Positions 4,689 to 37,526 of a stretch of DNA of 40,716 bases are shown piece by piece; position 1 is the stretch's first letter; every line of letters starts with the position of its first letter. This stretch comes from an uncultured bacterium (lineage in GTDB: Bacteria; Bacillota_I; Bacilli_A; Erysipelotrichales; Erysipelotrichaceae): the NCBI GenBank assembly GCA_903847945.1, contig CAINEY010000048.1, positions 1-40,716 on the forward strand, given 5' to 3'. The notes under the pieces are model-generated. The model worked only from the letters and a program-made list of their open reading frames with translations, made no database searches and was not told the origin of the DNA. The translations under genes and the position numbers were made by a program.

Positions 4689-7643
4689 ATGACCAAAACT
4701 CAAACCCGCAAGAAACCCAGAATCAGTACGATCTTCTATTCGTTCGTACTGGTGTTCTTGGCCCTCACGATTGTGATCGCCGCCTGGGGAGTCAATCACA
4801 TCACGACCGTCATCGCCAATGCCCCGCAATTGGATCCGGCCGACTTTGAAAGCAAACAGAGTTCAAAAATCTACGACAAAGACGGTGTTTTGATCGCCGA
4901 TATCGGGTTACAGATCCGCGAGAACATCACGTATGACATGTTGCCGCAGTCGACGATCGATGCCTTCCTGGCCATCGAAGACTCCCGTTTCTTTGAACAC
5001 AACGGATTCGATATCCCCCGTTTCATCAAAGCCATCCTCGAAAACCTCAAAACCATGAGCTTCTCGCAGGGGGGTTCGACCTTTACGATGCAGTTGGTCA
5101 AAAACACCTACTTCGCATCGGAAGAATCTGAGGCTGCCGACTCCGGCTGGGATGGCATCAACCGAAAGATCGGCGAGATTTACCTCGCCTTGGAAACCGA
5201 GAAGATCGTCACCAAAGAACGCATCCTCGAGCTCTACCTCAACCAAGTCAATTACGGTGTCCCCGGCAATAAACGCGGAATCCAAACCGCCGCACAGTAC
5301 TATTTCGGAAAGAGCGTCAGTGAGCTCAGCCTGGTTGAATCGGCCATGCTGGCGGGAATCATCAATGGTCCCAACCTGTACAGTCCGATGAAGAACCTCG
5401 ACCTGAGCATCGAACGTACGCACACGGTGCTCGACTTGATGCGTTATCACGGTTACATCACCGATGAAGAGCTCGAGTTGGCCAAATCCGTTCAGATCGA
5501 GAACCTCATCGTGGGTTCCTTGTCTGAAGTCGGTTCCCCCTATCAATCCTACATCGACGTCGTCATCAATGAAGTCATTGCGTTAACCGGGCAAAATCCG
5601 GTCGATGTCCCGATGACGATTTATACGTACATGGATCGCCAGGCACAAGATGCCGTTGAAAACATCCAAAGCGGAACGACCATGAACTGGATCGATGAAT
5701 ACATCCAAATGGCCAGTGTCACCATCGACAACAAAACCGGTCAGATCATTGCTATCGGGGGAGGTCGCAACTATAACGGTGAGCGCCTCTTCAACCGCGT
5801 CACGGACATGTTCCGTCAACCCGGTTCGACGGTCAAATCATTCTTATCCTATGCCCTAGCCTTTGAATACTTAGGTTGGTCGACCAAACACATGGTCAGT
5901 GACGAGCCCTACAGCTATTCTGAAGTCAATCCGGACATGTTTGTGCAAAACCATAACGGCATCTACAAAGGCGATGTCATGCTGGAAGATGCCATTGGGG
6001 ACTCCCTCAACATCCCGGCGATTCTGACCCTGCGTCAAGTGACCAGCATGATCGGCAGCGCTTCGGTCGTCAGTTACCTCAACAGCTTGGGATTCACTGA
6101 AATCAAGCTGGGCACCGGTACGATGGCGTTTGACCTGGGATTTGCCATCGGCGGATCCTTGTTCAAGGTCTCACCTTACCAAATGGCCGGTGCTTACGGA
6201 ATGCTGTTCAACGATGGCAAATACATCAAACCCCATACGGTCAGCCGTATCGAATACTTGGACGGCAGTGCACCATTTGTCAGCAGTTACTCCGAAACTC
6301 AGTTGCTCAGTGAAGAATCCGCCTTCTTGGTTCAAAAACTGCTCCAAAACATCGTCACCACGGGTTACTTTACGACCAATAAACTGGTTCAACGGACCGC
6401 CTATCAAACGTTCCAGAAAACCGGGACCTCCGACTGGGGCAAAGAAGGCTTGGTCTATGGCATTCCAGAAAATGCAGCCAAAGACATCTGGTCAATCACC
6501 TCAACATCTCAACATTCCATTGTCACCTGGGTCGGTTATGACTCCGCCAGTGCAGAACATCGATCGTACATCGACGCCAAAGTCGCCAACCAGTGGTACG
6601 TCGGAAAGATCCCCTCGCAGATCCTGGATGCGCTATACCTGAATCGTTCGAAGCCACTCGACATTGTCAAACCGGCCAACGTGACGGCGCTGACTCATGT
6701 GCTTGGCGTGTATCCCTATGTGGCTCCTTTACCTGACATGAATCCGAATTTGGTCGTTACCGGCTTTATCAATAAAAAGTTCGCTTCGATCCCGCTGATT
6801 TCCGTTCCGGCTGTCGAAAATCCGGTCGATATGACCGTTGTCGCCAGCAATAACGGGGCTCAGAAGAATCTTTCCATCACCCTGACCGACTATCCGGATC
6901 CCTTAGCGTTGACTCCGGCTTTGCCCACCCGTGAAATGTCTTTGACCGTCGGCGATAAAACTGTCACCGCCATTGGACAACGTCTCTTTGACATCAGTTG
7001 GGTCTTCGGTCCGGTGAAATACTTCAGTCGCATCGTCGTCGATGGCGTAACGGTGGATACGCTCATGAGCGATACGCCGACCATGTCCGTCGACTTAACG
7101 GTCAATCCTTCGAGCACTTTGGTGGTATGCGGGTACTATGCCTACGAAACAGCAACGACCAAGAGTGTTGAGGTCTGCAAGACCGTTGACTTGAAAGCTT
7201 TAGATATCCAAGCCCCCAATACCTTGGTGGGTGCCGATACCAATACCCTTCTGGAATGGTTCAGTTCCAACGGATTGACCAACTACAGCATCTCCTATAC
7301 GATGCCTGAAACCTTCGATCCCAACAAACTCGACACTATTGCCAGCATCACCAACCTGACTGCCGGTCAAACCTACACCTACGATGAACTGGCTGCCTTG
7401 GATATTCAGATCGTGGTCTACGACAAAGTCATCGATTTGTACGCGACCTTCGTCAATAAATCGTACGCGACCCCGACCTGGTACAATTATGCCCAGTACG
7501 CCCAACCGGCTGCCGGAGCCGTCGTGACTCGGGTCGATGTCAACTACGCCACCATCACCCCAAGTACCGGCGTTTATATGCTATCGCAACTGCACGATCT
7601 CATCGATCAGGCCCAAACCCGCGTCAAACTGTTTACAAGCTAA
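4689..7643 (+). CDS. ponA: Class A penicillin-binding protein (transglycosylase/transpeptidase, PBP1A type)
   Basis: Bifunctional enzyme that polymerises lipid II into glycan strands and cross-links them outside the cell. The 984-residue protein has a short cytoplasmic tail and a membrane helix (about 12-34). The GT51 domain shows EDSRFFEHNGFD (catalytic E97) and QGGSTFTMQLVKN (127-139). The transpeptidase has S380-T-V-K383, S439-L-N441 and K577-T-G579. The last ~330 residues are an unusually long extracellular extension with beta-rich segments, a PASTA-like stretch (NTLVGADTNTLLEWFSSNGL) and two cysteines that could pair. AAGGAG lies 8 nt before the ATG, in the recU 3' end. Likely partner of GpsB. 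Confidence 0.95.
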   Translation: MTKTQTRKKPRISTIFYSFVLVFLALTIVIAAWGVNHITTVIANAPQLDPADFESKQSSKIYDKDGVLIADIGLQIRENITYDMLPQSTIDAFLAIEDSRFFEHNGFDIPRFIKAILENLKTMSFSQGGSTFTMQLVKNTYFASEESEAADSGWDGINRKIGEIYLALETEKIVTKERILELYLNQVNYGVPGNKRGIQTAAQYYFGKSVSELSLVESAMLAGIINGPNLYSPMKNLDLSIERTHTVLDLMRYHGYITDEELELAKSVQIENLIVGSLSEVGSPYQSYIDVVINEVIALTGQNPVDVPMTIYTYMDRQAQDAVENIQSGTTMNWIDEYIQMASVTIDNKTGQIIAIGGGRNYNGERLFNRVTDMFRQPGSTVKSFLSYALAFEYLGWSTKHMVSDEPYSYSEVNPDMFVQNHNGIYKGDVMLEDAIGDSLNIPAILTLRQVTSMIGSASVVSYLNSLGFTEIKLGTGTMAFDLGFAIGGSLFKVSPYQMAGAYGMLFNDGKYIKPHTVSRIEYLDGSAPFVSSYSETQLLSEESAFLVQKLLQNIVTTGYFTTNKLVQRTAYQTFQKTGTSDWGKEGLVYGIPENAAKDIWSITSTSQHSIVTWVGYDSASAEHRSYIDAKVANQWYVGKIPSQILDALYLNRSKPLDIVKPANVTALTHVLGVYPYVAPLPDMNPNLVVTGFINKKFASIPLISVPAVENPVDMTVVASNNGAQKNLSITLTDYPDPLALTPALPTREMSLTVGDKTVTAIGQRLFDISWVFGPVKYFSRIVVDGVTVDTLMSDTPTMSVDLTVNPSSTLVVCGYYAYETATTKSVEVCKTVDLKALDIQAPNTLVGADTNTLLEWFSSNGLTNYSISYTMPETFDPNKLDTIASITNLTAGQTYTYDELAALDIQIVVYDKVIDLYATFVNKSYATPTWYNYAQYAQPAAGAVVTRVDVNYATITPSTGVYMLSQLHDLIDQAQTRVKLFTS

Positions 7644-9372: not shown

Positions 9373-9876
9373 ATGAAAAAGCTTCGCCTGACCCGAGTGA
9401 TTCCCTTGATCGCTGCGGTGATCTTGATCCTGATAGCCTATTTGATCTTTGCTTCCCGGCGTCAAACCCTGAGCTATTTTGAGTATTTTGCGGAAGAACA
9501 GGTTCCATACAAGGATCTGATCGACGTGTTGGATGAAACACCTCGCGCTTTTTTCTTCTGTACGCAAGACAATGCCGATTGCCGTTATATCGACACGAAA
9601 ATGATTCGCGTCTTGATCGATGACGCCAACACGACCCGATTCGATCACATCACGCTGGTTGATACCGCGACCATGAATCCGGCGATCCTCCCAAGCGTCA
9701 CCAAAGCTACGTTGGGGTTTGCGCACGTTCCGGCCTTCGCGATCCTCTCATATCGAAACGACAAAATCATCGTCCATGCCGTCCTGGAATGGACCACTGA
9801 GACCCCCTTCACCAGTCTTAACCTCAAGGACTGGATGAAAGAGAATGATCTCTGGCTCAACGAATACACCAATTAA
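9373..9876 (+). CDS. Membrane-anchored protein, thioredoxin-fold-like, unknown function
   Basis: 167 residues from the ATG at 9373. An N-terminal signal anchor (VIPLIAAVILILIAYLIFA) is followed by an extracellular domain. That domain shows a thioredoxin-like pattern by eye: a beta strand leading into a cysteine pair (FFFCTQDNADCRYID, C-x6-C), a helix, a strand (HITLVDT), and HVPAFAILSYRNDKII, where the VP could be the cis-proline of that fold. The C-x6-C spacing is not the redox CxxC, so redox activity is doubtful. I do not recognise a named family. An ATG at 9367 is also in frame, but the promoter position favours 9373. Confidence 0.6.
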   Translation: MKKLRLTRVIPLIAAVILILIAYLIFASRRQTLSYFEYFAEEQVPYKDLIDVLDETPRAFFFCTQDNADCRYIDTKMIRVLIDDANTTRFDHITLVDTATMNPAILPSVTKATLGFAHVPAFAILSYRNDKIIVHAVLEWTTETPFTSLNLKDWMKENDLWLNEYTN

Positions 9877-27950: not shown

Positions 27951-30223
27951 TCATTAATCCCGATGACCGTCAACTCATCCAGGTCTTCTTTTTTACGGAC
28001 TTTGTGGACGATTTCTTTTTTCGGACGACGACGCATACGGATGAAGAGCCATAACTGGGCCGCGATGAAGATCGACGAGTAGGCTCCGGAGATCAACCCG
28101 ATGAACATGGCGAAATTGAAGGTGAAGATCGCTCCGGATCCCAGCGACAACAGGAACACGATCGGGATGATCGTCGTGGTGGTGTTCCACAAGCTACGGA
28201 GTGCCACGGCAGCCAAGGATTCATTGACGATCTTGGCATAATCATCTTTCGTGTAGTGCGGTTTATTGAGGGTGTTGAGGGTCTCACGAATACGGTCAAA
28301 GATAACGATCGTATCATCGACAGAGTACCCGATGATCGCTAAGATGACCGCGACCAATTCCGTGGTGACCTCCAGACGGAAGATGGCGAAGACCGCCAAG
28401 ACCATCAGGATGTCATGGACCAAGGCAACAACGGTCGCAAAACCGTAGTCCCATTCGAATCGAATGGTCACGAACACCAGCATCAAGATCCAGGCAATCA
28501 CGGATGCAAACATCGCATTGCGAACCAGCTCGGCTCCAATGATCGGCGTGACGACACTCTCATTGATTTCCTGACCGTACTTGGTGATCATCGCCTCATT
28601 GATGTCCGAGAGTGTTTCCCGAGAGAGGGCTTCGGTCGTAGTAATGTAGGCGACTTTATCGCCGGAAAGCTGAATATTGAAATTGTCGAGTCCAAAGGTT
28701 TCAAAATCGGCAATCAGCGTCGCTTCATCCAACGCGACATCGGAGTTGACCGTGATCTTGGTTCCTGACGCAAAGTCGATCCCAAAATTCATCGCCCCTT
28801 TTCCGCTGAAGAGATTGAAACCGGTACTCAGTAAGCCTAAAGTAATCACAAGGACACTCACCGCAATAAAACGCGGAGCGATTTTAACAAAATCGACATT
28901 CTTGAACGGGCCGAAATAGCGTTGTTCTTCTTTCTTAGCCACATCCGGAATATGTTTCAGATTGACATTGAACCAAGTCTTCTTCTCATCGAGGATCCCC
29001 GAGTTGACTAAGAGACCCAACAGGAATTTGACGAAGAACACGTTGATCAGCAACGTGACGATAATGGTCACCATCAGCATGGTCGCAAAGCCTTTGACGG
29101 CACCCGTCCCAAACAGATACATGATGACCGCGGCAATGAAGGTCGTAGCTTGGGAATCAAAGATGGTCCGCCAGGCTAAGGTATGCCCTTCATCAAAAGC
29201 TTTCTTGACCGTACGGCCCAAATAGAGTTCATCTTTGATGCGCTCAAAGGTGAGGATATTGGCATCGACCGTCATCCCAACCCCCAAGACCAAGGCTGCA
29301 ATCCCCGGCAATGTAAACACACCGCCGATGGAGTTATACACCAAAATAACAACAAACACATAGAGACCCAGCATCAGGGCGGATAAGATCCCCGGCAACC
29401 GGTAAACAAAGATCATAAACAAGGCCACACCGATGACCCCGATGATGCCGGCGAAAGCAGTCGTCGAGAAGGCACTCAACCCGAACTCGGCACTGACTTC
29501 ATTGGAGTAGACTTCGGTGAGTTTAACGGGCAATGACCCGGAGTTGATCAAGTTGGCCAACGAACGGGCTTCGGCTTCAGTAAAGTTGCCTTTGATGACC
29601 GCATCACCGCTGATCGCATCGTTAACGGACGCAGCAGAAATGAACTTCGGATCGGCTTTGTCCTTTTCAGCTTCGTAAGAGTCGGTAGCGGCATCAAAAT
29701 CAAGCCAGGTCACCATTGTGTTGTCGGTCATCTTGGAGACTTTGTCAGTGATCTCTTCGAATTTGTCTTTGTCTTTGATCTTAAGACTGACCACGACGAC
29801 GCCGTTCTCGTAAGCTAGTGAGGCTCCCCCTTCTTCAAGAATGGAGGCATCGGCGAGCAAGTTGTCGTCGGTATCACGGAAGGTCAGGTTAGCGGTCGTT
29901 GAAATGAGTGCCCGCGCTTCTTCCTGATTGGCGACTCCCGCCAATTGAACACGGATCCGGTTCTCGCCTTCAACGATGATGTCGGGTTCATTGACCCCGA
30001 TGATGTCGATGCGCTTACGGATGCTGGCAACCACTGCCGTCACATCCGGCAAGGTTCCGCCTTCTTTAAGTGGACTGATTTCGTAGACGATCTCGAAACC
30101 GCCTTGCAGGTCAAGCCCCAAGGTCATGTTGTCACTGATGTCTTTTCCGTAGGCCAGTAGCATTGCCAATAGGGCAACGACGGTCAGGGCGAATACACCC
30201 AGACGGATTGGTTTTTTCTTCAT
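27947..30223 (-). CDS. secDF: Fused protein-export membrane protein SecDF
   Basis: Uses the proton gradient to pull secreted proteins out after SecYEG translocation. The 758-residue protein fuses SecD (starting after one membrane helix, GLDLQGGFEIVYEI, then the P1 domain and five helices) to SecF (MNFGIDFASGTKI, then its own periplasmic-type domain and helices). The conserved membrane segment GMTVDANILTFERI (D4 motif) and GYSVDDTIVIFDRIRET are both present. SecDF fusion is usual in Bacillus. GGAGGAG precedes the ATG, which overlaps the upstream stop as ATGA. Confidence 0.95.
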   Translation of the reverse strand: MKKKPIRLGVFALTVVALLAMLLAYGKDISDNMTLGLDLQGGFEIVYEISPLKEGGTLPDVTAVVASIRKRIDIIGVNEPDIIVEGENRIRVQLAGVANQEEARALISTTANLTFRDTDDNLLADASILEEGGASLAYENGVVVVSLKIKDKDKFEEITDKVSKMTDNTMVTWLDFDAATDSYEAEKDKADPKFISAASVNDAISGDAVIKGNFTEAEARSLANLINSGSLPVKLTEVYSNEVSAEFGLSAFSTTAFAGIIGVIGVALFMIFVYRLPGILSALMLGLYVFVVILVYNSIGGVFTLPGIAALVLGVGMTVDANILTFERIKDELYLGRTVKKAFDEGHTLAWRTIFDSQATTFIAAVIMYLFGTGAVKGFATMLMVTIIVTLLINVFFVKFLLGLLVNSGILDEKKTWFNVNLKHIPDVAKKEEQRYFGPFKNVDFVKIAPRFIAVSVLVITLGLLSTGFNLFSGKGAMNFGIDFASGTKITVNSDVALDEATLIADFETFGLDNFNIQLSGDKVAYITTTEALSRETLSDINEAMITKYGQEINESVVTPIIGAELVRNAMFASVIAWILMLVFVTIRFEWDYGFATVVALVHDILMVLAVFAIFRLEVTTELVAVILAIIGYSVDDTIVIFDRIRETLNTLNKPHYTKDDYAKIVNESLAAVALRSLWNTTTTIIPIVFLLSLGSGAIFTFNFAMFIGLISGAYSSIFIAAQLWLFIRMRRRPKKEIVHKVRKKEDLDELTVIGIND

Positions 30224-30507
30224 GCTTCTCCTCCAAGCAAGACCGAATAATCGGATAAGTGCTGTTTACGGCTGTCCAGGACGGCTTTTCGGGCCAGAAA
30301 GGCCACGATGCTGTCCGGAGTAATGCTGAGAATGTCGTCGATGATTTGACTGAGGTGTTGCGGCAATCCATCGGACCACTTCACGTGCCAAAGCGCCGCT
30401 TCCAATTCGGCGGCACTCAAGGATGGCAACCATTGACTCTGGAGCTGATTGAGCCGTAGGCTCAAGGTCAGCAGGATTTGTTGATCGTGTAGAGGTTCTT
30501 GTCGCAT
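30220..30507 (-). CDS. ComN-like post-transcriptional regulator family protein
   Basis: A 95-residue helical protein. The segment LEAALWHVKWSDGLP and IIDDILSITPDSIVAFL match the pattern of the ComN family (L..LW..KW....P..L...V.DILSLS). ComN lies next to secDF in Bacillus, where it controls comE mRNA; the same role here is not shown because no competence genes are visible. The start at 30507 has GGAG 5 nt upstream; a longer frame crosses the promoter. Confidence 0.7.
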   Translation of the reverse strand: MRQEPLHDQQILLTLSLRLNQLQSQWLPSLSAAELEAALWHVKWSDGLPQHLSQIIDDILSITPDSIVAFLARKAVLDSRKQHLSDYSVLLGGEA

Positions 30508-30529
30508 ACGTGCTCCGTGTCGCTGTCTT

Positions 30530-30558
30530 ATTATAAGCCATACCCGGAGTGTTGAAAA
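30530..30558 (-). promoter_or_regulatory. Promoter of comN-secDF
   Basis: Minus strand -35 TTTTCA (30553-30558), 17-nt spacer, consensus -10 TATAAT (30530-30535), 22 nt before the start codon. Confidence 0.65.
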
Positions 30559-30569
30559 GTAAAATCGAT

Positions 30570-31868
30570 TCAACTCGGCAGGCACATCACCATTTGTTTG
30601 AAGAGTCGACCCCGCTCTTCATAGTTCTTGAACTGATCATAACTGGCACAGGCCGGTGAAAGCAGCACCACATCCCCGCTTTGAGCCAAAGCGAAGGCTG
30701 TATTCAAGGCTTCTTCCATCGTTTCGACGATTAGGGCTTTATCGACCAAGGATGCCAGCTGATGTTTGGTTTCTCCATAAACAATCAATGTCTTGATGCG
30801 GGAGGTCAAGGGCTTAAGGGCATCAAATCCGGTCTTTTTATCGTAACCACCGGCTAACAGGATGACCGGTTTCTCGAAAGCATTCAAAGCCACAACGGTG
30901 GCTTCGGCATTGGTGCCTTTGGAATCGTTGTAATAACGCACGCCCTTGAGTTCACGAACGAACTCGATGCGGTGTTCGACCCCTTTGAAAGCTTGGATCC
31001 CGGTTTTGATCTGTGCCGGTGTAACCCCGAGTTTAAATGCCATAGCTGCAGCAGACATCGCATTTTGAACGTTGTGACGTCCCACGATTTGCAGATCACT
31101 CAAGTCGAATAAAGGTTCGCCAAAGCACGTCACCGATCCCTTTTCGATGCAGACATCCGCTTTCTTATCCAAGGAGAAGGTCACGACTCTGCACGGAACA
31201 TTCGTGGCTCGTTTGACGATTTCAGGATCATCCAGATTCAACAAAAACCAGTCATCCTCACTTTGATTGCGGTAGACCAGCATCTTGGCCTGATAATAGG
31301 CATCCAAGGATTCAAACACATCCAAATGATCGGGAGTGAGGTTCAAGATAACACTGACTTGGGGATGCAGTGTCGGGGTTCCTAAAAGCTGAAACGCCGC
31401 CATCTCCAACGCTAAGGTCAGTTTTTCGCGCGGATGAACAAGTGCAATCTCACTCAGTGCATTGCCGATGTTGCCGTAAGCGCCATTGTGCGGATGCAAG
31501 ACCTTCAATAATTCGCCCAGTAATGCCGTCGTGGTCGTCTTTCCGTTGGTTCCGGTAATCGCACCATAACGGTAACTCACACCCCAAGAGGCATATTCCA
31601 TTTCATTGATGACCGGGATCGATCGTTCGACAAATCCTTTGACAAACGGTAAGGTATGCTTGATTCCCGGGTTCTTGATAACTAAATCGAATCCTTCATC
31701 CCAAAGGGATTCCGGATGACTGCCGGTGATCACAATGATTTTCGTTTGAAGATCCTCAGGGACTTGGACACTGCCCCCGTCATTCAGCGTGACCTCATGA
31801 CCGTCACGGATCGCTAAGCGTGCAACCGCCAAACCGCTGCGGGCGGCTCCCAGCACCAGGATCTTCAT
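30570..31868 (-). CDS. murD: UDP-N-acetylmuramoylalanine-D-glutamate ligase
   Basis: Adds D-glutamate to UDP-MurNAc-L-Ala in the cytoplasmic steps of peptidoglycan synthesis. The 432-residue protein shows the N-terminal Rossmann segment (ILVLGAARSGLAVARLA), the ATP loop AITGTNGKTTTT, NLTPDHLDVF, and YNDSKGTNAEAT of the C-terminal ligase domain. The usual ELSSFQL is EMAAFQL here, a conservative variation. The start overlaps the mraY stop as ATGA. Downstream comes the comN promoter, not ftsW or murG as in the standard dcw cluster. I see no clear terminator after it. Confidence 0.95.
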   Translation of the reverse strand: MKILVLGAARSGLAVARLAIRDGHEVTLNDGGSVQVPEDLQTKIIVITGSHPESLWDEGFDLVIKNPGIKHTLPFVKGFVERSIPVINEMEYASWGVSYRYGAITGTNGKTTTTALLGELLKVLHPHNGAYGNIGNALSEIALVHPREKLTLALEMAAFQLLGTPTLHPQVSVILNLTPDHLDVFESLDAYYQAKMLVYRNQSEDDWFLLNLDDPEIVKRATNVPCRVVTFSLDKKADVCIEKGSVTCFGEPLFDLSDLQIVGRHNVQNAMSAAAMAFKLGVTPAQIKTGIQAFKGVEHRIEFVRELKGVRYYNDSKGTNAEATVVALNAFEKPVILLAGGYDKKTGFDALKPLTSRIKTLIVYGETKHQLASLVDKALIVETMEEALNTAFALAQSGDVVLLSPACASYDQFKNYEERGRLFKQMVMCLPS

Positions 31869-32809
31869 GCAATCCACAGCCCTAGGACTAAGCCCAAAAG
31901 TCCAACGGCCCAAAAGAGCGCCACGACCTGTTTTTCTTTCCAACCCGATAAGGTGAAACTGTAGTGGATCGGGGTGTACCGGAAGATCCTGCGTTTGAAA
32001 AGCTTGACCGAACCAATCTGAAGGATCACACACAACGTTTCAATGACAAAGACGATTCCGATGATGACCAGCAGTGCTTCCTGCTTCATCACCATCGCGA
32101 TGACTGCCAAAAGCGCTCCAAGCGCCAACGAGCCGGTATCTCCCATGATGATCTTGGCAGGATAGACATTGTAGACCAGATAAGCACTTAGCGAACCCAA
32201 AACCATCAGCATGAAATGGCCCAGGATGAGATTGACATCGTGATTGATCAGCCAGAAGCCGAAGATCGCAATCCACACGGTCCCCCCAGCCAAGCCATCC
32301 ATCCCATCTGTGAGATTGACGGCGTTGCTGGCTCCGGTAAACATGAAGAACACCAAGCCCACATAGATCCACCCTAAATCCAACATCGCATCGATCACCG
32401 GGATCAACACGCTGCTGTCCGCAAACGAACGGTAGATAAGGTAAACCACCACGGCCAAAACCAACTGAGCCAGAAACTTATGCGAGGGTTTCAATCCGGC
32501 ATTGTCTTTTTTGATAACGATAATATAATCATCCAGAAATCCGATGAGCCCGTAGCCGGCATACGTCAGATAAACAACTGCCAGCCGCAAATCGAGAAAG
32601 GAGGCCGGATGGACCAAAAACGCGGCCACTAACGGAATCGCGATAAACAGGATCCCGCCCATCGTCGGGGTCTTCTTCTTTTGTTTGAATTGTTCAAGGG
32701 AGTACGTGCTGACGCTTTGATGTTGATTCAACGCATCCATGCGACGAATAAAGGGCGGATAAGCCGCCAGGGTTACCAAGAAAGTAACGATAAAAATAAG
32801 GGCGTTCAT
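31865..32809 (-). CDS. mraY: Phospho-N-acetylmuramoyl-pentapeptide transferase
   Basis: Makes lipid I by moving phospho-MurNAc-pentapeptide to undecaprenyl phosphate. The 314-residue polytopic protein has the family motifs KKKTPTMGG, FLDDYI, NAVNLTDGMDGLAGG and MGDTGSLALGA with the catalytic aspartates. I use the ATG at 32809, which begins a signal-like helix; a longer frame runs into ftsI. This ATG is the 3-nt loop of a 12-bp inverted repeat and lies 9 nt after a consensus extended -10, so the leader is only 2 to 3 nt and there is no Shine-Dalgarno. Confidence 0.95.
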   Translation of the reverse strand: MNALIFIVTFLVTLAAYPPFIRRMDALNQHQSVSTYSLEQFKQKKKTPTMGGILFIAIPLVAAFLVHPASFLDLRLAVVYLTYAGYGLIGFLDDYIIVIKKDNAGLKPSHKFLAQLVLAVVVYLIYRSFADSSVLIPVIDAMLDLGWIYVGLVFFMFTGASNAVNLTDGMDGLAGGTVWIAIFGFWLINHDVNLILGHFMLMVLGSLSAYLVYNVYPAKIIMGDTGSLALGALLAVIAMVMKQEALLVIIGIVFVIETLCVILQIGSVKLFKRRIFRYTPIHYSFTLSGWKEKQVVALFWAVGLLGLVLGLWIA

Positions 32810-32821
32810 AACGCCCTTATT
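32795..32821 (-). terminator. Terminator-like hairpin with the mraY start codon as its loop
   Basis: Arms 32795-32806 and 32810-32821 are a perfect 12-bp inverted repeat with the CAT complement of ATG (32807-32809) as loop. The 3' arm on the minus strand ends in CTTATT and continues TTTATC, a T-rich tract. It could terminate transcripts coming from ftsI. Confidence 0.7.
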
Positions 32822-32827
32822 ATAGCA
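32819..32827 (-). promoter_or_regulatory. Extended -10 promoter of mraY-murD
   Basis: Minus strand AGTGCTATAAT with -10 TATAAT (32819-32824) and TGC extension. The predicted transcription start (~32812) falls inside the 5' arm of the hairpin that carries the start codon. Confidence 0.7.
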
Positions 32828-32832
32828 CTGCC

Positions 32833-34986
32833 TTAGGGGGTGAGGGTGACCAAAATGACCCCGTCGGGATTCACCAAAGTCCCCGGCAAAACTGATTGTG
32901 AGCTCACCAAGCCGCTGCCGTCGATGATGAACTGGGCCTTGATCAACGAGAAGAAGGTCAATGCATCTTTCTTGCTCCACCCGCTCATGTCCGGCATCAC
33001 CACATCCTGCGTGGAGGTCAACAGGAACAAACGTTGATTCGATAACACGGAGGTCCCGCCTTGCGGAACCTGTTGGATGACGCTGTTTCCGGATCCGATC
33101 ACCACGACGGGATTCGGTAAGGTCCCCAGTTGCGCCAATGCATAGGACAGACTGTGATTGATGACGCGAGGAATCGGAGCGGTCGTCAACTGGTCTTCAC
33201 CACCATTCGTGGGATTGAGTTTGTGCAAGACGATTGCATTCAGCGTTGCCTTGACAGTTTCGCGGTAGAGTTGAGTGGTTTCCGGGGTCATGAAACCTTG
33301 AACTGCGACATAGACCAGGTACTGGGGATCTTCATAAGGTAGACCTAAGACGATGGAGTAGATGAACTCTTCTTCCGAGTAATCCCCGTCCACATACACT
33401 TGGGCGGTCCCCGTTTTTCCGATGATGTTGGCTGAAGGAATGGTGAACTTGGAGACACCGCCCAAGGGGGTCAGTGCCGCACTGCGCATGAGTTCGATCA
33501 TGGCCTGCGAGGTAGCCTCTGAAATTGGTTGTCCGACCACGGTCGGCGAGAATTGCTCCAAAACTTCCTGGGTCTGTGAATCGACGATGCGATCGATGAC
33601 GTAGGGTTTCATCATTTGTCCCCCGTTCATGATCGCCGTGTACGCTTGAACCAGTTGCAGCATATTCACCGATAAACCCTGCCCAAACGACACATGCAAC
33701 AGATCCGTGAGTGAACTGATGTTGCTGGTCGCTAAGCTTTCCGGAACGATATCAGTATTGACCGTTTCAAAGAAATGGAACTTGCTCAGGTATTTCTTGA
33801 ACAATTCGGGATCCAAATGGTCACTGAGGATCGAGGCAACCCCAACGTTAGCGGAGACCGCATACCCGAAATCGAACGTGATCTCCCCCCAATTGGTGTT
33901 GTTGACGTTACGGATGACCGCCAGTGATCCGGCACGGGATGGCAAACGCTGGATCTTGCCGTCTTTAATGGCGTAGTAAAACGGCGCAGAGTTGAAGGTC
34001 TCAGTGACATCCAACGCCCCTTCTTCAAGGGCTGCTGCGTACGTAAACGTCTTCATCGTTGAACCCGGCTCATACAAGAGCTGGCTGGCGTAGTTCAAAA
34101 AGGTTGTTGGATTGGCTAAGTTCAAGTCAAAACTCTCGGTTTGAGCCAATCCAAGGATCTTTCCGGTTTTGACTTCTACGATCGTTCCCCATGCCATTTT
34201 GGCTTGAGTCACGCTTTGGGCTTGATTGATGGACAGTTGAAGCTGGTCCTGTAAGGGTTTCTCGAGCGTTAAGACGACCGATTCCCCGTTCTGAGCCGGA
34301 GTAATGCGTTCCGGTGAGCCCGGTAACACATACCCTTGGCTATCCACGGTGGCGATCCGAAATCCGTTGAGTCCTTTGAGCCGATCGTTGAGCGAGGCTT
34401 CCAAGCCCATCCGTCCGACGGCATCCTTCTCCGGGGTCTGATCGTCATCGTTGACGTAACCCAAGAGGTGCGAGGCAAAACTGCCTTGCGGGTAGATGCG
34501 GCTCAGGGTTTCCGTAAAGCCCAGACCAGGGAGATCTAACGTTTCGATCGCTTGTCGGGTGGCGATCGTCAAATCGCTGCCCTTGGGCCCAAACTCAGTC
34601 TGGTAGTCGGCCTGTTCCAAGCGTTCCAGGATATACGCTTCGGTTAGTCCTAAAATCGGCGCTAAGGCCGATGCGGTCGTCTCATAATCGGAAACATAGG
34701 CTTGTTGACCATCCATCGAGGGCCGATTGGGATCGACAATGGCATACAGGGTATAACTGCGCACATCCTCGGCCAAAATGGTCATATTCGCATCGTAGAG
34801 GGTTCCCCTTCGGGCAAACACTACACTGCGCTGCAAATTGACTTCCTGGCTGTAAGCATCCAGATCGGTTTGACTTTGAAGATGGACGCCCAAGATGCTG
34901 ACACTGAAAAGATTCGCGACCACCAAGGCCGCGATCAATCCAAAAACCGCCACGGAAAGGCTCATCATGACGGTACTTCGACGCAT
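32833..34986 (-). CDS. ftsI: Class B penicillin-binding protein (FtsI/PBP2B type) with PASTA domains
   Basis: Transpeptidase that cross-links septal peptidoglycan. The 717-residue protein has one N-terminal membrane helix, the FARRGTLYDAN segment of the dimerisation domain, and the active-site motifs S309-T-M-K312, S378-A-N380 and K524-T-G526. From about residue 590 there are two PASTA-like repeats (PRVINHSLSYALAQLG and VVMPDMSGWSKKDALTFF). This resembles PBP2x and SpoVD. One nucleotide separates it from ftsL, whose last codons carry AAGGA for it. Confidence 0.95.
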   Translation of the reverse strand: MRRSTVMMSLSVAVFGLIAALVVANLFSVSILGVHLQSQTDLDAYSQEVNLQRSVVFARRGTLYDANMTILAEDVRSYTLYAIVDPNRPSMDGQQAYVSDYETTASALAPILGLTEAYILERLEQADYQTEFGPKGSDLTIATRQAIETLDLPGLGFTETLSRIYPQGSFASHLLGYVNDDDQTPEKDAVGRMGLEASLNDRLKGLNGFRIATVDSQGYVLPGSPERITPAQNGESVVLTLEKPLQDQLQLSINQAQSVTQAKMAWGTIVEVKTGKILGLAQTESFDLNLANPTTFLNYASQLLYEPGSTMKTFTYAAALEEGALDVTETFNSAPFYYAIKDGKIQRLPSRAGSLAVIRNVNNTNWGEITFDFGYAVSANVGVASILSDHLDPELFKKYLSKFHFFETVNTDIVPESLATSNISSLTDLLHVSFGQGLSVNMLQLVQAYTAIMNGGQMMKPYVIDRIVDSQTQEVLEQFSPTVVGQPISEATSQAMIELMRSAALTPLGGVSKFTIPSANIIGKTGTAQVYVDGDYSEEEFIYSIVLGLPYEDPQYLVYVAVQGFMTPETTQLYRETVKATLNAIVLHKLNPTNGGEDQLTTAPIPRVINHSLSYALAQLGTLPNPVVVIGSGNSVIQQVPQGGTSVLSNQRLFLLTSTQDVVMPDMSGWSKKDALTFFSLIKAQFIIDGSGLVSSQSVLPGTLVNPDGVILVTLTP

Positions 34987-34987
34987 G

Positions 34988-35290
34988 TTAATCGTCCTTG
35001 GACAACTGAATGACGTTATCGTTATTGATGGTCAAGCCGGCAGCCTTGGCAATGGCCATGACCCGGTTGAAATCACTCAGGGATTGCACTTCTTTGGTCA
35101 GGGCTTTGTTGGAGTCCTGCAGCAGCGCCACTTCCTGCGACGTGTTCTGCACTTCGACACTTAAGGAAACGTTGTATGAACGTAAGAAGAAAGCGGTCGC
35201 CAGGTAAGCCACCAGACACAACGCAAAAAACAGACCGGTCCAGGCCATGAGTTTCGGTTTGCGGCGTGTGGTAACAAGACGAGCGTTCAT
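34988..35290 (-). CDS. ftsL: Cell division protein FtsL
   Basis: A 100-residue bitopic protein: basic cytoplasmic start (MNARLVTTRRKPK), one membrane helix (WTGLFFALCLVAYLATAFFL), and an extracellular coiled coil (VEVQNTSQEVALLQDSNKAL). Sequence conservation in FtsL is low, so the call relies on this topology and on its place between rsmH and ftsI. The start at 35290 overlaps the rsmH stop as TGATG. Confidence 0.88.
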   Translation of the reverse strand: MNARLVTTRRKPKLMAWTGLFFALCLVAYLATAFFLRSYNVSLSVEVQNTSQEVALLQDSNKALTKEVQSLSDFNRVMAIAKAAGLTINNDNVIQLSKDD

Positions 35291-36213
35291 CAACGGATCC
35301 TTTCTAAGATGCGGCAATGCGCCGAGTGAGCCCGCGGGTTATCGCGCAACTCGTCGGCTGAAGCGGCTTTGGCTTTGGTTTTGATCATCCGATACGGGGC
35401 TGATGCCACGTTGGTGATCGGGAGTTTGGCGGGAACATGCGGATCCGACAACTCCATGAAGCGGTGTTTGACGGCTTTGTCTTCCAACGAATGGAAGGTC
35501 AGCACGACAAGTCGTCCACCGGGCTTAAGAACGGAGACAGCTTGGTCCAAGACTTCCTCCAAGACCTCGAGTTCACGGTTGACTTCGATGCGGAGGGCTT
35601 GGAAGGTTTGTTTAGCCGGATGCCCTTTCTGAGAGAGCACTTTGGCGGGTAAAGCGGATTTGATGACCTCGACCAGTTGGAGGGTGGTCTCGATCGGTTG
35701 TTTCGCTCGGTAACTTTCAATCGCCCGGGCGATATTCTTCGCAAAGGGTTCTTCCCCGTATCGTTGCAGGATCTTCATCAGCTCCGCAAACGGATAGGTA
35801 TTGACGACGGTATAGGCATCCAACGACTGACGGCGATCCATGCGCATATCTAGCCGGGCGTCATAGCGGTAACTGAAGCCGCGCTCCGGATCATCAAACT
35901 GCGGAGAGGAGACCCCCAGATCCAAGAGGATCCCATGGACTTCAGAGATGCCCAGTTGAGTCAGTGTGGCTTTCAAGGTGTTGAAGTTGGCGTGAATGAC
36001 GTTTAAGCGATTGGCGTAAGCTGTTAATCGGGCACTGGCTTCACGAATGGCTTGTTCATCCTGATCGAAGGCAATCAAACGTCCCGATGTCAGCGCTTTG
36101 AGGATCCCTTCAGCGTGACCACCACGTCCCAGGGTCCCGTCCACATAGATCCCGGTTGGATCTATGGACAGCCCTTCCAGCACTTCAGTGTAGAGGACCG
36201 GAATGTGCGTCAT
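35290..36213 (-). CDS. rsmH: 16S rRNA (cytosine1402-N4)-methyltransferase
   Basis: RsmH (MraW) methylates C1402 in the decoding centre of 16S rRNA. The 307-residue product starts MTHIPVLYTEVLEGL and contains the SAM motif YVDGTLGRGGHAEGIL, then ILLDLGVSSPQFDDPERGFSY and PGGRLVVLTFHSLEDKAVKH. Length is normal. The start overlaps the mraZ stop as ATGA; an upstream extension of 25 codons lies inside mraZ. Confidence 0.97.
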   Translation of the reverse strand: MTHIPVLYTEVLEGLSIDPTGIYVDGTLGRGGHAEGILKALTSGRLIAFDQDEQAIREASARLTAYANRLNVIHANFNTLKATLTQLGISEVHGILLDLGVSSPQFDDPERGFSYRYDARLDMRMDRRQSLDAYTVVNTYPFAELMKILQRYGEEPFAKNIARAIESYRAKQPIETTLQLVEVIKSALPAKVLSQKGHPAKQTFQALRIEVNRELEVLEEVLDQAVSVLKPGGRLVVLTFHSLEDKAVKHRFMELSDPHVPAKLPITNVASAPYRMIKTKAKAASADELRDNPRAHSAHCRILERIR

Positions 36214-36647
36214 CCTTTGAAGTACTCGGTCAGCGTTTCGGCGACCGCCTCGAAGGACGAACTGGCTTCGGCTGCATAGGCTTCCCAACGGGCTTTCGCC
36301 CAGATTTCCACATGAGAAGCGACCCCGACGATGACAACTTCCTTTTCGATCCCGGCATCCTCCATGAGGGGTTGCGGGATCAGGATGCGTCCGGTCGTAT
36401 CGACTTCCACTTCAGCGGCCTTGGCGGTCACCATGTGGATGTACATGCGGGATTCGCGTTTGGTCGTGGGCAATTTCTGGAGTTCAGCCAGAATGGCTTC
36501 CCAGCGGTCATTGGTGTAGACATAGATGCATCCATCAAGACCCTTGGTCAGAATCATCGACGATCCCAACGCATCACGAAAGCGAGCGGGCATGATGATG
36601 CGCCCTTTGCTGTCGGTGTTGTGTCGGTATTCGCCCATGAACGCCAT
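36210..36647 (-). CDS. mraZ: Transcriptional regulator MraZ
   Basis: MraZ is a ring-forming DNA-binding protein that controls its own division/cell-wall operon. The 145-residue protein holds two SpoVT/AbrB-like repeats: GEYRHNTDSKGRIIMPARFR and VDTTGRILIPQPLMEDAGI. The ATG at 36647 has GGGAG 7 nt upstream; a GTG eight codons earlier would lie in the operator. Four GTGG repeats at 10-bp spacing directly upstream are the expected MraZ site, so autoregulation is likely. Confidence 0.95.
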   Translation of the reverse strand: MAFMGEYRHNTDSKGRIIMPARFRDALGSSMILTKGLDGCIYVYTNDRWEAILAELQKLPTTKRESRMYIHMVTAKAAEVEVDTTGRILIPQPLMEDAGIEKEVVIVGVASHVEIWAKARWEAYAAEASSSFEAVAETLTEYFKG

Positions 36648-36657
36648 GTTGCTTCTC

Positions 36658-36691
36658 CCACTTTTTCCCACAAACTGCCACTATCTACCAC
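36658..36691 (-). promoter_or_regulatory. MraZ operator (four GTGG repeats, 10-bp period)
   Basis: On the minus strand GTGG occurs at 36688-36691, 36678-36681, 36668-36671 and 36658-36661, each exactly 10 bp apart. MraZ is known to bind such helical-phase repeats (TGGGN in E. coli, AAAGTG-type in mycoplasmas). The array runs from about the transcription start to the ribosome site. Confidence 0.88.
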
Positions 36692-36692
36692 C

Positions 36693-36698
36693 ATTATA
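36693..36698 (-). promoter_or_regulatory. -10 element of the mraZ-rsmH-ftsL-ftsI operon
   Basis: Consensus TATAAT on the minus strand, two bases upstream of the first GTGG repeat. The -35 region (36716-36721) is poor, consistent with a regulated promoter. Confidence 0.7.
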
Positions 36699-36709
36699 CC
36701 CTTCTTGTG

Positions 36710-36755
36710 CAAAAAGAAAAGGGATTTATGCATTTTTTCTTTGCACAAATCCCTT
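36710..36755 (-). terminator. Terminator of the esterase gene
   Basis: Arms AAGGGATTT and AAATCCCTT (36747-36755 and 36719-36727) with a 19-nt loop, followed by CTTTTCTTTTT-type T-rich sequence on the minus strand. A second, interlocking inverted repeat shares this region. Confidence 0.6.
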
Positions 36756-36764
36756 GTTTATAAC

Positions 36765-37526
36765 TTAAGGTTGGATCAGCCAGCGCAGGACATCCGCGAT
36801 ACGCACGGCCCAAGCACTCTCATGATGGATTCCACCCGGAATTACTTCGGTTCTCAGCGCTTTAGAACGCTTGTGAGCCACGGCTTCGACGATCCGGTGA
36901 TGGGTTTTGACATAGCGACGATTGTGCACCGGCTCCGAAGACTCGGTGTCTCCGGTATCCAGATACATCCGGGGTAAGATCCCGTCAAAGGCTTCGATGC
37001 GTTTCATCAAGGGTTTCTCCGCAAACCACCAGGCGTTTGAGAGCCCGAAGATCCCGCTTAAGCGATCCGGATAGGCCAAGGCTGCACACAGGCTAATGAA
37101 TCCCCCCATGGAGGATCCCCCCATATAGACTCCCGTTGTCGGATACTTGCGGGTGTAGTATGGAACGACTTCCTCCATCACGTACTTGAGATAGAGATCC
37201 CCTTTCCCCCCGGCAATTCGTGGAAGTCCCAGCTTGAGCAAAGTTTTAGTCCCTTTGAACGGACTGTATTCATCCATACGCCCGGCACCGTCTTCACAGT
37301 TGTTGATCCCGATCACCCGCATCTTGGGCACTCCCGCTTGTGTCATAGCTTCATACACGCGCCAGGATTGCCCGTAACCGGCGGTCTTGTCATCAAAGAG
37401 ATTCTGTCCGTCATGCAGAATGAGTAAAGGACCCGGTTCTTCCGGGCTCAAGGTACTGCACACATAGAAACTGACTTTACGGTTCAGTGTGGTACTGAAC
37501 CGTGTGCTTTTCCGATAGGGTTTCAT
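36765..37526 (-). CDS. Alpha/beta-hydrolase, putative esterase (esterase D-like)
   Basis: A 253-residue cytoplasmic hydrolase of the putative esterase family. ILHDGQNLFDD is the family oxyanion-side motif, GGSSMGG holds the nucleophile S139, DTGDTE (near 193) supplies the acid and the GGIHHESAW histidine completes the triad. The substrate is unknown; relatives cut acyl esters of sugars or siderophores. It stands between rpmF and mraZ and is not part of the dcw operon. The ATG has no Shine-Dalgarno and follows the T-run of the rpmF terminator by a few bases. Confidence 0.85.
   Translation of the reverse strand: MKPYRKSTRFSTTLNRKVSFYVCSTLSPEEPGPLLILHDGQNLFDDKTAGYGQSWRVYEAMTQAGVPKMRVIGINNCEDGAGRMDEYSPFKGTKTLLKLGLPRIAGGKGDLYLKYVMEEVVPYYTRKYPTTGVYMGGSSMGGFISLCAALAYPDRLSGIFGLSNAWWFAEKPLMKRIEAFDGILPRMYLDTGDTESSEPVHNRRYVKTHHRIVEAVAHKRSKALRTEVIPGGIHHESAWAVRIADVLRWLIQP

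Follow-up and report, generated by a model that had tools for sequence, protein, structure and literature searches.

A perfect inverted repeat looped on the mraY start codon suggests fusion of a terminator with a nearly leaderless promoter in an uncultured Erysipelotrichaceae bacterium

The window analysed here, that is, the whole stretch of 40,716 nucleotides, corresponds to contig C48 in an assembly of 1.53 Mb (63 contigs, 79% complete), and its closest named relatives, based on MraY, are mainly Erysipelotrichaceae. The minus strand carries mraZ, rsmH, ftsL, ftsI, mraY and murD in this order, with secDF further on. The product of mraY (31865–32809, minus strand; 314 aa) matches Pfam PF00953 and MraY_sig1, and ftsI (32833–34986, minus strand) encodes a PBP with a PASTA domain. 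The ftsI stop codon, TAA at 32835–32833, is 23 nt before the mraY ATG, and the minus strand across the junction reads ...TAA GGCAG TGCTATAAT AAGGGCGTT ATG AACGCCCTTATTTTTATC. The murE and murF genes are missing from the cluster between ftsI and mraY (window 30220-36671), and a small ORF with no assigned function (30220-30585) lies between murD and secDF.

Four MraZ-type boxes (GTGGT, GTGGC, GTGGG and GTGGG) with a 10-nt period are located at 36657–36691 on the minus strand, between the mraZ -10 and mraZ. We take these GTGGN repeats to match the MraZ box, and transcription of mraZ-rsmH-ftsL-ftsI is probably under MraZ, in agreement with the earlier note on this DNA, which had described the upstream genes as MraZ-controlled. 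The region upstream of mraZ (window 36657-36780, minus strand) also contains an inverted repeat, TTGTGCAAAGAAAA...TTTTCTTTTTGCACAA, which abuts the -10 GGGTATAAT and is followed by the four boxes; it resembles a terminator-then-promoter module.

The start of mraY lies at the centre of a perfect 12-bp inverted repeat, AATAAGGGCGTT-ATG-AACGCCCTTATT, which occupies 27 bases including the loop (minus strand, 32821–32795). The 5' arm AATAAGGGCGTT (32810–32821) covers the last three bases of the -10 and includes both an AAGGG that resembles an SD and the predicted start of transcription; the 3-nt loop (32807–32809) is the ATG itself; and the 3' arm AACGCCCTTATT (32795–32806) corresponds to mraY codons 2–5. 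The arms are fully complementary, just as the earlier note had reported. The start codon is secure, because three congeners (G001, G002 and G003) share the Met-Asn start at an equal distance from the -10.

The repeat is built like an intrinsic terminator. Its stem has a G+C-rich core of 7 bp, GGGCGTT/AACGCCC, lengthened to 12 bp around the loop of 3, and past the core runs a T-rich tail, TTATTTTTATC (32789–32799, minus strand), with 7 T in 8 positions after the core (TTATTTTT), though interrupted. The T-richness claimed earlier for the 3' arm is borne out in composition, but the tract UUAUUUUUAUC is imperfect, being interrupted at UUAUUUUU, and the terminator score (d = 5.8) is only median, ranking 106th of 213 terminator-like hairpins in the sampled stretches of the genome. 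Such a tail is adequate, not strong, and some of its T-richness belongs to codons of the first membrane helix. A 45-nt RNA folds into the single hairpin at -15.9 kcal/mol (z = -4.25), and none of 200 shuffles is equally stable, while in a 61-nt context z is just -2.49. Comparison with Rfam gave nothing close to a gathering score for a known structured RNA.

Overlapping the upstream arm by three bases is an extended -10, TGCTATAAT (32819–32827, minus strand), with no recognisable -35; this overlap had also been pointed out before. The promoter is conserved in the three congeners (67–71% MraY identity), where TGCTATAAT or TGATATAAT stands exactly 9 nt ahead of the mraY ATG. The pattern TGNTATAAT-N9-ATG is exact in all three, none of them has an SD sequence between the -10 and the ATG, and TATAAT-N9-ATG in the window's genome (G000) and the congeners places a -10 directly before the start codon, as in a (nearly) leaderless gene. 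From the -10 spacing, transcription is predicted to start 7 nt after the -10, at 32812 (a G), which would leave a leader of 3 nt, GUU-AUG. By the same +7 rule the predicted 5' end is RUU-AUG in all four genomes, with G in the window and A in the congeners. The earlier proposals of a start at ~32812 and of a nearly leaderless mraY are consistent with these predictions. The four remaining congeners keep the extended -10 at 21–23 nt from the ATG and have an SD-like sequence. Among other family members in which ftsI lies upstream, most show a -10-like site 17–41 nt ahead of the mraY start codon, generally together with an SD.

Leaderless genes seem common in the genus, because the distance from the -10 box to the ATG shows an extra peak at 6–8 nt in G000 (25 cases in 557 kb) and also in G001, G003 and G006 (fewer cases in smaller samples). 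The 6–8-nt class of G000 obeys the +7 rule too; it is absent in the family member G022 (0 cases in 100 kb) and slight in G026 (2 cases in 100 kb). Across the genus such TATAAT-like boxes of leaderless type (in G000 for example L115:4237-, L152:9508+ and L160:12266-) are in excess, beside an SD-led class at 16–27 nt. In a 2011 survey, leaderless genes of Firmicutes were found mainly in Lactobacillales and Mycoplasma (PMC3160421), and genes of this kind have a TANNNT box ~12 bp upstream of their start (PMC3160421, PMC12340547). The mraY gene resembles them in its extended -10 beside the ATG and in a predicted own transcript without a usable SD, and it differs in that its 9-nt spacing predicts a leader of 3 nt rather than zero and in that a hairpin is added.

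Background rates for G000 were obtained from ~557 kb of sampled stretches. Perfect stems of at least 12 bp (loops of 3–8) occur 27 times in this sequence versus ~0.7 times per dinucleotide shuffle, a ~40-fold enrichment, and in nearly all of the 27 a G+C core is flanked by an A-run upstream and a T-run downstream, the intrinsic-terminator form that the mraY hairpin shares. Promoter-proximal ATGs were defined as those that open a frame of at least 100 codons with a -10-like box no more than 40 nt away. The stem containing the ATG measures 12 bp for mraY but does not exceed 6 bp for any other of these starts (161 in the 557 kb of G000); the largest in five other genomes (337 starts) is 7 bp, so that the mraY hairpin has no equal among the 498 starts of the six genomes. 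When the -10, the ATG and the codons after it are fixed, a random 9-nt spacer yields a stem of at least 12 bp with P ~3e-6 and one of at least 9 bp with P ~8e-5. Because an entire window was scanned, such estimates should perhaps be multiplied by a few dozen, and chance alone is still unlikely to be the source of the hairpin.

Other starts embedded in terminators were searched for automatically, and eight of the ten candidates listed were inspected. Most were clear wrong start calls, the real start lying downstream of an ordinary terminator (for example L109, L136 and L162); the L108 frame appeared to be non-coding, and L145 had a core of only 5 bp. The automatic list missed mraY because its reading frame continues far upstream without a stop. 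When a second scan was based on -10-like sites, mraY was the sole remaining case. No start codon overlapping a terminator was found in the literature titles or abstracts searched.

The two halves of the element appear to differ in age: the promoter half is old, as judged from its distribution, and the hairpin half is private to G000. The earlier note had proposed, as a check, to look for conservation of the repeat around the ATG in related genomes. Such conservation is not seen: the three congeners keep the promoter and its spacing, without the hairpin. Their spacer is ATTTTCATT, with a longest stem at the mraY start of 5 bp, and no hairpin around the mraY ATG was found in congeners or family loci. 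The hairpin has been seen in one MAG, and a DNA search of eight genomes of the genus with the 161-bp region matched the window alone. Sampled stretches of G000 and G001, two genomes of one genus, have G+C contents of 48.6% and 38.6%, respectively.

The ftsI-mraY border was surveyed in 46 family and order loci with ftsI just upstream of mraY. In several (L039/L060/L061/L063, L074/L086, L024/L026 and L105) a stem of at least 8 bp with a T-rich tail is located at the ftsI stop codon, with the mraY promoter after it, and weaker terminators occupy the same place in L033, L044 and L106. These borders resemble the window in that they set ftsI apart from an mraY promoter of the extended -10 type. However, their hairpin spans or adjoins the ftsI stop and precedes the -10, whereas that of the window follows the -10 and lies over the mraY ATG; elsewhere in G000, too, terminators precede a promoter rather than overlie it. 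Compact modules running from terminator to -10 to start codon were noticed at L152 (~9480-9508, plus), L162 (~7190-7235, plus), L136 (~2542, minus) and L138 (~5882, minus). A transcript boundary between ftsI and mraY thus appears to recur, because several other lineages have an ordinary terminator at the ftsI stop. It is not universal, and insulation is apparently not a lasting need of this lineage, since G001, G002 and G003, the closest congeners, have neither the hairpin nor any other ftsI-mraY terminator.

We hypothesize that the element unites an intrinsic terminator specific to this lineage with a nearly leaderless promoter, a fusion that would insulate mraY from MraZ-controlled readthrough; we lean towards this reading, if only slightly. 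The conserved extended -10 would start mraY transcripts ~3 nt before the ATG, so that the mRNA would be nearly leaderless, and in the G000 lineage the spacer and first codons would have become a perfect inverted repeat shaped as an intrinsic terminator. Polymerase arriving from mraZ-rsmH-ftsL-ftsI would transcribe the whole hairpin and be let go at the U-rich tail (~32796–32789). In any readthrough RNA that escaped, the SD-like AAGGG would be paired and the AUG held in the 3-nt loop, so masking of the start codon is possible as a second layer beside termination. Polymerase starting at the mraY promoter would leave untranscribed 9 of the 12 bases that make up the 5' arm and therefore yield a translatable mRNA with no hairpin. 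In folding calculations RNA begun at 32812, itself a predicted start, does not form the hairpin, as anticipated by the earlier note, in which these transcripts were said to lose most of the 5' arm. The mraY RNA would escape only because its transcription start falls within that arm. As a consequence mraY, and probably murD, would be insulated from MraZ control. The cluster has the gene order of MraZ-controlled mraZ-rsmH-ftsL-ftsI clusters and MraZ-type boxes before mraZ, and differs from them in that mraY would have its own promoter and a private barrier. Because readthrough RNA is predicted to fold and own-promoter RNA is not, and the upstream genes are probably under MraZ, the terminator-promoter fusion is favoured.

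The hairpin might instead act on translation only: without any termination, it would mask AAGGG and the start codon in readthrough RNA, and promoter-borne mRNA alone would be translated. The position of AAGGG wholly inside the 5' arm and of the AUG in the 3-nt loop, the stem stability of -15.9 kcal/mol, the imperfect U-tract and the median terminator score all fit such a lock. We nevertheless regard it as decidedly unlikely, given that the hairpin has the A-run/T-run form of G000 terminators and that ribosomes finishing ftsI could melt it, because this gene ends only 23 nt upstream. The palindrome could also function as DNA, binding a dimeric regulator of mraY. A perfect palindrome lying across a -10 and a transcription start is a classic arrangement for an operator, and the mraY repeat overlaps both the -10 and the predicted start site. 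Against this stand the terminator-like 3-nt loop and T tail, the absence of the palindrome from congeners that retain the promoter, and its single copy: with up to 3 mismatches allowed over the 18 arm bases, no second site, including at a regulator gene, was found in the 1.53-Mb assembly (79% complete), and there is therefore no visible regulon or autoregulated regulator gene. An operator is accordingly very unlikely.

The palindrome may, alternatively, have little regulatory effect, having arisen by drift or by template-switch repair in the course of DNA synthesis that copied the coding start into the spacer. Such an origin would accord with the lack of conservation of the hairpin, with T-rich codons that encode a membrane helix and with a 3' arm that partly resembles the congeners' codons; the spacer would moreover have changed anyway, because G+C is 49% in this genome versus 39% in G001. 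This explanation is unlikely, in view of the ~3e-6 chance of a stem of at least 12 bp and the uniqueness of the hairpin among the 498 starts, and a mutational origin is in any case compatible with a present effect.

A more ambitious form of the fusion is a self-exempting barrier, in which the 33-bp element would serve as promoter, as terminator of all incoming RNA and as a start-codon lock, a triple role that would follow from the transcription start lying between the terminator arms. This is tentative, and we would sooner doubt it than accept it. The closest parallel is in IS10 and IS50, where readthrough transcripts fold over the transposase start and pIN transcripts do not. By analogy, at mraY the promoter start is predicted to lie inside the inverted repeat, only transcripts from outside would contain both arms, and the start region would be masked in them. 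In contrast to these elements, mraY is a housekeeping gene in its native cluster, its ATG is itself the loop, and the hairpin has an intrinsic-terminator tail and a predicted own transcript that is nearly leaderless. No mobile element with a transposase gene was found at the locus, whose genes are mraZ, rsmH, ftsL, ftsI, mraY, murD and secDF.

Terminators, extended -10 promoters and leaderless initiation are each known; what is unusual is their fusion with the ATG as the loop. If the self-exempting barrier is real, it would be a cellular counterpart of IS10 readthrough protection, enabled by nearly leaderless initiation, which would let a promoter, a terminator and a translational lock share one short element. 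The element would then be a minimal between-gene insulator of ~33 bp, and different lineages of one family would have different means of separating mraY control from the MraZ cluster.
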